Assembly (NCBI GenBank): GCA_913055565.1
Contig: CAJXKP010000003.1
Coordinates: forward strand, 1 to 64,000
Length of the DNA: 64,000 nucleotides
Source: an uncultured Ectothiorhodospiraceae bacterium
GTDB taxonomy: Bacteria; Pseudomonadota; Gammaproteobacteria; Nitrococcales; Nitrococcaceae
Direction of reading: 5' to 3'
Shown here: positions 988 to 5,709 of the stretch, piece by piece
How positions within the stretch are numbered: position 1 is the stretch's first letter
Layout of the letters: each line of letters starts with the position of its first letter
Made by a program: the position numbers and the translations under genes
Notes under the pieces: model-generated
Database searches by the model: none
What the model saw: the letters and a program-made list of their open reading frames with translations, nothing else
What the model was told of the DNA's origin: nothing

Positions 988-3846
<2,859 letters not shown>

Positions 3847-3849
3847 CCG

Positions 3850-5016
3850 GTGGGACCAGAGGCAATGCTCAGCACGCTCGGTGGCGATACGTTTGTTCAT
3901 GACTACTGGCAGCAGTGCCCTCTAGTCGTGACGGGCGCCTGGCGGAGTCCGCCGCAATTCCTCGGTGCCGATGAACTAGCGGGTCTGGCCACTGATCCGG
4001 CGATCGCGTCGCGCATCGTCATGGGGGATACCGAGGCCGAAGACTGGATGATCATCGAAGGCCCCGTCACCGAGACCTTCTTTAGCGACACCCCGGAGAC
4101 AGACTGGCAACTGACCGTGCACGGCGTCGATCGCCATGTCCCGGTCTACGCAGCGGTACGCGAGGCCTTTCGCTTCCTCCCGGACTGGCGCTTCGATGCC
4201 GTCGCCATAAGCTATTGTGTGCCGGGGGGCACCACGGGCCATAACGAGGATGACGCGGATCTGTTTTTCCTGCAGGTCAGCGGCGATACGGACTGGTCCA
4301 TCCATGAGCCCGTCGAGTCGGCTGCCGGGGCCTGCGGCCAGAGCGCACGGCAAGCCTGGAACCTGCGGACTGGTCCCGGGGATCTGGTGTATCTGCCGCC
4401 CTATACCGGCTACTACGGCGTTGCCCGGACCGAGGGTGTGACCTACTGCATTCGATTTCGCGCGCCAACCCCGGCCGAGCTGTTGCGAACCTGGGCGCAG
4501 GATCGCGCCCAACAGCTCGAGCATCACGCGGACGAGATCGTCAACTCACAAGCACCAGCGGCTAATCCAGCGGCGCTACCAGAGGCCACTCGGGCGCAAC
4601 TGCGTGCGGCCTTGCGGGCCTATCTGGACCCCTCGGACCGTGAACTCGACGAATGGCTCGCGCGTTATCTAACGCGACCGGACGAGACACTCGATGCTGA
4701 ACCGACCGACTCCGCGCCGACGTCGATGGCCATTCGCGAGGCACTGGCGGCAGGACGGGAGCTAGTCGTTGATCCCATGGCCCGCCTGGCATGGTTAACC
4801 ACAGCGGACAACGGCGTATTACTGTACGTCAATGGCTACCCTCAGCCCGCACCATCATCGGCACAGGGCGTTTTGGTCGGCTTCGCGCAGGCCCGGCGTT
4901 TTACGGGCGCGGATCTCGCTACGGCTGACGACGCGGGCGCCGGCGCGGTGGTGGAACTACTCGCAACCGGCCTTCGGTGGGGTTGGTTGGCATTCCACGA
5001 TGAGCTCGTGGGCTAA
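3850..5016 (+). CDS. JmjC/cupin protein of the RoxA (YcfD) family with degraded metal site
   Basis: A 388-residue protein with the layout of ribosomal oxygenases: N-terminal JmjC/cupin barrel (about 1-210), helical dimerisation part and C-terminal winged-helix-like domain. Active relatives hydroxylate an arginine of ribosomal protein L16 using Fe(II) and 2-oxoglutarate bound by HxD...H. Here the first motif reads GHNEDDADLFFLQ (H131-Q143). Aligned on the FLQ end, Asn132 takes the place of the first His and Asp134 is kept. The distal motif reads LPPYTGYYGVA, with Tyr188 where His is expected. The fold is therefore kept but the iron site looks lost. It follows purB by 3 bases, the same neighbour as the cupin gene in Pseudomonas. 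It may be a pseudoenzyme or have a shifted active site. Confidence 0.8.
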   Translation: MGPEAMLSTLGGDTFVHDYWQQCPLVVTGAWRSPPQFLGADELAGLATDPAIASRIVMGDTEAEDWMIIEGPVTETFFSDTPETDWQLTVHGVDRHVPVYAAVREAFRFLPDWRFDAVAISYCVPGGTTGHNEDDADLFFLQVSGDTDWSIHEPVESAAGACGQSARQAWNLRTGPGDLVYLPPYTGYYGVARTEGVTYCIRFRAPTPAELLRTWAQDRAQQLEHHADEIVNSQAPAANPAALPEATRAQLRAALRAYLDPSDRELDEWLARYLTRPDETLDAEPTDSAPTSMAIREALAAGRELVVDPMARLAWLTTADNGVLLYVNGYPQPAPSSAQGVLVGFAQARRFTGADLATADDAGAGAVVELLATGLRWGWLAFHDELVG

Positions 5017-5190
5017 CGACGCTGCTGAAAACCGCTACGACCGGCACCGCTCTAGGGGCCTAGCCTCGCGGCTCTTGCCGTCGGCTCGGCACGCGATGGA
5101 AACTAGTAATGGCGCAAGGGTCGCGGTTGCGGCAAGGACGCGCCGAGAAGCTGGTGCACTGGTGACGCATCCCGGCCTATGGAGGTCAGC

Positions 5191-5709
5191 ATGCCCTATC
5201 CGGATTGGTCTAGTCTCAGTCTAGGCAGCGATGAACAGGTCTATGAGGTCGATGACAGTCAGGCCCTGCGCGATGCCGTAGCCGCGCTCGCCGCTCAGGC
5301 CCGGCGCCGGATCGAGGTCCTAACGCCCGACCTCGAAGCTACACTCTATGATACGCCGGATTTCCTTGAAGCCGTGCGGGACCTTGCGATCGCTAGCTCG
5401 CGCACCCACCTGCGCTTCCTCGTCGGCGATAGTCAGCGCGCCGTTAAACAGGGACACCGCCTGATCGAATTGGCACGACGGCTATCGACGCCCGTGGATC
5501 TGAACCAACCGGGCCCAACGGCGGAGCTCGGGAGCGAGGCCTTCCTGCTGGCCGATGGTCGAGGGCTGTACTGGCGTGCGGATACGGACAGCACACGGGC
5601 GATCGTCTGCTTCAATGACCCGAGCGGGACCAGACGCCTACGCCACCGATTCGATCAACTTTGGGAGGAGTCGCGGCCCGACCCCGAGATGCGCCGACTG
5701 CATGTCTAG
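5191..5709 (+). CDS. conserved hypothetical protein (DUF7931-like)
   Basis: A 172-residue soluble protein without signal peptide or membrane segment. It contains repeated beta-alpha stretches (RRIEVLTPDLEATLYD, HLRFLVGDSQRAVKQGHRLIELARRL) and ends in a short RRLRHRFDQLWEES helix, resembling the domain I recall as DUF7931, often attached to a GNAT acetyltransferase next to RoxA/PurB. No acetyltransferase part is present. ATG 5191 was chosen because GGAGGT at 5180-5185 sits 5 bases upstream; the in-frame ATG at 5179 overlaps that ribosome-binding site. Function unknown. The 174 bp before it hold no clear gene. Confidence 0.6.
   Translation: MPYPDWSSLSLGSDEQVYEVDDSQALRDAVAALAAQARRRIEVLTPDLEATLYDTPDFLEAVRDLAIASSRTHLRFLVGDSQRAVKQGHRLIELARRLSTPVDLNQPGPTAELGSEAFLLADGRGLYWRADTDSTRAIVCFNDPSGTRRLRHRFDQLWEESRPDPEMRRLHV

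Follow-up and report, generated by a model that had tools for sequence, protein, structure and literature searches.

The window, a 64,000-nucleotide stretch of DNA from an uncultured Ectothiorhodospiraceae bacterium, encodes a RoxA/YcfD-like protein that has lost almost all of the residues for iron, 2-oxoglutarate and substrate arginine. Judged by sequence and gene order, this 388-amino-acid protein is an intact-frame RoxA/YcfD orthologue, inherited in place behind purB. It is probably a vertically inherited RoxA that has given up Fe(II)/2-oxoglutarate hydroxylase activity and persists in a non-catalytic role.

The open reading frame (3850..5016, + strand) has no internal stop. It begins 3 nt past the purB stop codon with a GTG preceded by GAGG, and an alternative ATG lies at 3865; GC content by codon position was uninformative across the frame. 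Two Pfam domains score above their gathering thresholds, which places the protein among RoxA/YcfD homologues: JmjC_2, the double-stranded β-helix, at residues 104–211 (4159..4482, +; PF08007, E 1.4e-13; model pLDDT mostly >90), and the ROXA-like_wH winged helix at residues 263–374 (4636..4971, +; PF20514, E 4.7e-10). Helices where YcfD has its dimerization domain (residues 208–259; 4471..4626, +) are predicted from the secondary structure of the model and a VIA alignment over residues 1–386. NCBIfam provides no family name for the protein, nor for its active relatives; the nearest solved structures by sequence are those of Rhodothermus marinus and Escherichia coli YcfD, both L16 arginine hydroxylases.

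An AlphaFold2 model of the protein, built from 21 sequences, has a mean pLDDT of 85. In Foldseek and VIA-align comparisons, YcfD entries rank first, with Z scores of 32–33 over 353–370 residues and a fold match spanning residues 1–386. The protein is thus homologous over its full length to the YcfD/RoxA uL16 arginyl C-3 hydroxylases (E. coli, 4LIT/4CCL; R. marinus, 4CSW/4CUG), sharing with them the order of JmjC, dimer and winged-helix domains and the predicted fold (Z 33), as the first-pass annotation had proposed from length and domain order. Human RIOX1/NO66 and RIOX2/MINA53 have the same three-domain ribosomal-oxygenase architecture and score well below the YcfD entries (Z about 16–19); unlike the window protein, they are active histidyl hydroxylases with an intact HxD...H motif and a 2-oxoglutarate lysine. 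The sole stretch of the JmjC domain that the model cannot place is the β-IV/V loop at residues 155–167, where pLDDT falls below 50.

The gene lies at the orthologous position behind purB (adenylosuccinate lyase; 2479..3846, +; Pfam ASL_C). This linkage, already recognized in the first-pass annotation, is the same as in the Pseudomonas and Arhodomonas orthologues, and purB is present in 79 of the 82 RoxA-bearing stretches examined. Downstream lies a conserved DUF7931 gene (5179..5709, +), with homologues downstream in Arhodomonas aquaeolei (G003/L015) and in a second relative, G005. The complete relative G005 has the same order of fumC, purB, roxA, DUF7931 and NUDIX genes as the window; the Arhodomonas contig carries the first four in this order and stops shortly beyond them. 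An assembly chimera was ruled out by this shared gene order. Arhodomonas and G005 carry the nearest relatives of the protein (39–41% identity) but, unlike it, keep HxD...H, the 2-oxoglutarate arginine and the full arginine pocket. The DUF7931 gene follows roxA in all three genomes, and lies behind purB in G004, a family genome without RoxA.

Pocket residues were numbered by anchoring on H133 of R. marinus YcfD, the change of which to alanine abolishes activity (PMC5862935). The R. marinus segment GGTVGAHIDNYDVF aligns gap-free with GGTTGHNEDDADLF of the window protein, setting Asn132 against the first histidine ligand and Asp134 against the aspartate (first ligand motif Asn132, Glu133, Asp134; 4243..4251, +). 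At the distal site, PPRIPHYGVA of solved YcfD lies gap-free over PPYTGYYGVA, so that the histidine ligand is replaced by Tyr188 (4411..4413, +). Alignment with family and order relatives returned the same ligand substitutions. Misalignment was rejected as their cause, as neither site contains a gap in the pairwise, family or 222-row survey alignments. Both replacements had been read from the sequence in the first-pass annotation and hold. Two of the three iron ligands are therefore gone, and only Asp134 is left.

The losses extend beyond those first listed, to the 2-oxoglutarate arginine, every residue of the arginine-binding pocket and a segment of the substrate loop. The residue that binds the 2-oxoglutarate C5-carboxylate is an arginine or lysine 15 positions past the first histidine ligand, as in the HyRiox pairs H178/K193 and H330/K345 (PMC6006756); the window protein has Thr147 there (4288..4290, +). 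YcfD holds the target arginine of L16 between walls formed by Y137 and M120 and through hydrogen bonds from D118 and S208 (PMC5862942). In R. marinus numbering, Asp118 and Met120 are replaced by Ala117 and Ala119 (4198..4206, +), Tyr137 by Ala136 (4255..4257, +), and Ser208 and an invariant glycine by Cys200 and Arg202 (4447..4455, +), the arginine now standing within the pocket. The β-IV/V loop, which participates in substrate binding in YcfD (PMC5862942), is shortened by an in-frame loss of nine residues between residues 164 and 165 (4339..4344, +), where relatives carry, for example, LRLLxDF. The changed positions on the strands are spaced by two (117, 119 and 123; 132, 136 and 138; 200 and 202), a pattern that would be expected if the inward strand face had been rebuilt and the outward face kept.

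To place these losses among homologues, we compiled 222 rows from family, order and class relatives and from named genomes. A few of the rows are repeats; the class survey covered 369 genomes with a whole-protein profile, of which 138 had a match. The 13-residue pocket signature DMSAVHDYVRHSG is unchanged in 206 of the 222 rows, a count to be read knowing that the named-genome subset is biased to intact triads (one of its two search patterns contained the HxD motif); the class survey, with its whole-protein profile, is free of this bias. The window protein reads AASCTNDALTYCR, with 11 of the 13 positions changed. The position of Asn132 is histidine in 220 rows and a gap in the other two; that of Tyr188 is histidine in 219 and a gap in three; that of Thr147 is arginine or lysine in 219, the rest being one glutamine and two gaps. 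With columns this uniform, the ligand replacements are not a matter of chance. Loss of both histidines was found in no other full-length homologue of the survey, where the HDH triad was otherwise broken only in one HNH protein and three fragments. A search of the open-access literature turned up no bacterial RoxA described as a pseudoenzyme.

Several other proteins in the survey depart from the canonical pattern in their own ways. The HNH protein (L220, G316:C468:18035-19541) is a RoxA homologue in which the iron aspartate has become asparagine (HxN...H), with the remaining pocket intact. Another (L191, G387:C50:72912-74457) keeps the HDH triad and has the pocket AMSAVHDRLQHTG, with D118 changed to alanine, Y137 to arginine, the 2-oxoglutarate arginine to glutamine and S208 to threonine; it is perhaps a hydroxylase with an altered substrate. 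In two genomes of the class, G108 and G237, frameshifts or stops break the RoxA gene (L236 and L237). What is still legible of the G108 pocket is unchanged, the pattern of ordinary decay, unlike the window gene.

The distribution of change along the protein bears on whether the gene is decaying or retained. We took 43 positions with conservation of 95% or more across 123 non-redundant homologues (<75% identity). Of these, 30 are unchanged in the window protein and 13 differ; the most altered of the other homologues differs at five. Twelve of the 13 fall in the JmjC domain, and all nine N-terminal conserved positions are kept. Among the eight catalytic or substrate residues seven differ, compared with six of the 35 others (Fisher p = 4e-4), and those six include conservative replacements (V to L, L to V, A to C and V to T). 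When neutral point mutation was simulated to the same conserved-site damage, about 1% of runs were free of stops (frameshifts excluded), a figure that rises to 7% if non-pocket sites alone are counted.

Domain-wise branch lengths point in the same direction. With the tree fixed and the average of the two active family members as reference (60 bootstraps, 2.5–97.5%), the terminal branch of the window protein is 9.7-fold (5.2–21.8) for JmjC, 2.7 (1.5–4.0) for the N-terminal part, 1.6 (0.7–2.7) for the dimer part and 0.9 (0.3–1.8) for the winged helix, estimates that are inflated by changes at almost invariant sites. Raw identities give a smaller contrast between domains than these model-based rates suggest: across the four parts, they are 49, 48, 32 and 29% between the window protein and G005, and 63, 77, 36 and 37% between G005 and Arhodomonas. 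The winged helix evolves quickly even in active orthologues, and its lack of acceleration is therefore weak evidence of constraint.

The most serious alternative, which we regard as possible but a good deal less probable than retention, is that the gene is a relic: the family would have ceased to need hydroxylation, the pocket would have come under weaker selection, and a functionless gene would be awaiting deletion behind purB. The RoxA branch of the window is long, at 1.51 substitutions per site against 0.46 and 0.62 for its active relatives, whereas the PurB branch shows no more than mild acceleration in this genome (0.40 against 0.30 and 0.22). The history of the family also fits a relic. 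RoxA is present in three of 23 family genomes, degenerate in the window and canonical in Arhodomonas and G005, and missing from 20. On the purB tree, RoxA-less genomes occur in three places: g2, grouped with G005 (support 89); G004, grouped with Arhodomonas (support 79); and g3. The 3′ side of purB differs among them, with a NUDIX gene at once in g2, DUF7931 at once in G004 and neither within 1.5 kb in g3. These three places, with their differing neighbours, indicate at least three separate clean losses; with the pocket loss of the window, the family has so given up RoxA hydroxylation at least four times.

Set against a relic is the concentration of damage in the pocket rather than its scatter along the gene, together with a frame that stays open despite heavy change; these argue against plain decay and bear out the first-pass view that the gene is not simply eroding. 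Structural positions, the winged helix and the conserved N-terminal positions are spared. The family loci from which RoxA was lost show no detected remnant, and the damaged RoxA genes elsewhere in the class are split or stop-bearing, a contrast that favours a window gene retained for a reason, although it falls short of proof. No close relative of the window genome is available for dN/dS, the genus being represented by one genome.

Somewhat less probable again is that the pocket has been rebuilt as a whole into a docking site for a non-iron ligand or a protein, carried on the old frame of dimer and winged-helix parts. A more far-reaching version, which we consider unlikely, holds that the cavity was remodelled around another ligand or metal, with Asp134 kept, giving a new sensor or enzyme. 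The residues concerned would be Ala117, Ala119, Cys123, Thr129, Asn132, Ala136, Thr147, Tyr188, Cys200 and Arg202. That so many pocket positions were altered together does look like remodelling, and the replacements go in both size directions, some side chains shrinking (D to A, M to A and Y to A) and others growing (G to R and H to Y). Close to the former metal site, Tyr188 and Arg202 take up more room, whereas alanine now stands at three positions. These two side chains are predicted to occupy the pocket, with Arg202 perhaps pairing with Asp134. However, the new pocket is known from one genome, with no relative sharing its sequence; the shortened substrate loop is modelled with low confidence; and a single candidate metal ligand is left from the old triad. 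The particular site suggested in the first-pass annotation, formed by His131, Asp134 and Tyr188, is improbable: His131 occupies the proline or alanine position that precedes the ligand, where its side chain on the β-strand should point away from the pocket, and the 2-oxoglutarate arginine is gone as well.

Eukaryotic chromatin proteins, which are not RoxA orthologues, offer a partial parallel. Epe1 and PHF2 share with the window protein the change of the distal histidine ligand to tyrosine. Both keep the first histidine, in which they differ from the window protein. Epe1 of fission yeast has an HXE...Y motif and a function that is not enzymatic, and no activity has been demonstrated for it in vitro (PMC7192584). 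It is a precedent for a JmjC protein kept without catalysis, and also an example of a natural tyrosine at the distal JmjC ligand that can matter, a point in favour of a repurposed pocket.

That the protein is still an active Fe(II)/2-oxoglutarate hydroxylase, acting on L16 or some other substrate through an Asn/Asp/Tyr triad, is very improbable despite its overall YcfD fold and retained Asp134, given that two of three ligands, the 2-oxoglutarate arginine and each of the four arginine contacts have disappeared and that a single histidine change already inactivates R. marinus YcfD (PMC5862935).

The genome, which is about 94% complete, was searched for a second, intact RoxA, a check raised in the first-pass annotation, and for a JMJD5-like Cupin_8 protein. 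Neither another JmjC_2 gene nor a Cupin_8 gene was found in it. The substrate is present: the L16 of this genome carries EVRQGKGKGN, the Arg81 loop, which all inspected L16 proteins of the family share whether or not RoxA accompanies them, and which hence does not discriminate between them. A co-evolved L16 was rejected as an explanation, Arg81 and its loop being unchanged. An anaerobic lifestyle as the reason for the loss likewise has no support, as the genome encodes heme-copper oxidase subunit I. Since the only JmjC_2 gene found is the RoxA without its pocket, Arg81 of L16 is probably unmodified in this organism.

We therefore return to a retained, non-catalytic RoxA. Such a protein would fold as a YcfD homodimer, with the helices predicted at residues 208–259 forming its dimer part, and would act through protein–protein contacts of the dimer and winged-helix parts; it would not hydroxylate Arg81. 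Its partner may be a ribosome-assembly component. The dimerization domain of YcfD matters for activity, its winged helix is regarded as a binding site for substrate or ribosomal partners rather than for nucleic acid, and holding L16 before ribosome assembly has been suggested as a role for YcfD (PMC4295552). Of the ribosome-binding pseudoenzyme envisaged in the first-pass annotation, the pseudoenzyme part is supported by the lost catalytic residues, while ribosome binding is weakened, with the L16-arginine contacts replaced and the loop shortened. Because the arginine pocket and the loop are lost, any contact with L16 would have to use other surfaces.

These results carry a caution for annotation: Pfam JmjC_2 scores well above its cut-off here, and domain matches alone can mislabel proteins as L16 arginine hydroxylases. 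If the rebuilt-pocket reading is true, this RoxA would be a bacterial counterpart of the chromatin JmjC pseudoenzymes, with a function that can be separated from hydroxylation. A naturally occurring RoxA in which the protein persists without its chemistry would offer a direct test of whether YcfD/RoxA has a job independent of hydroxylation.
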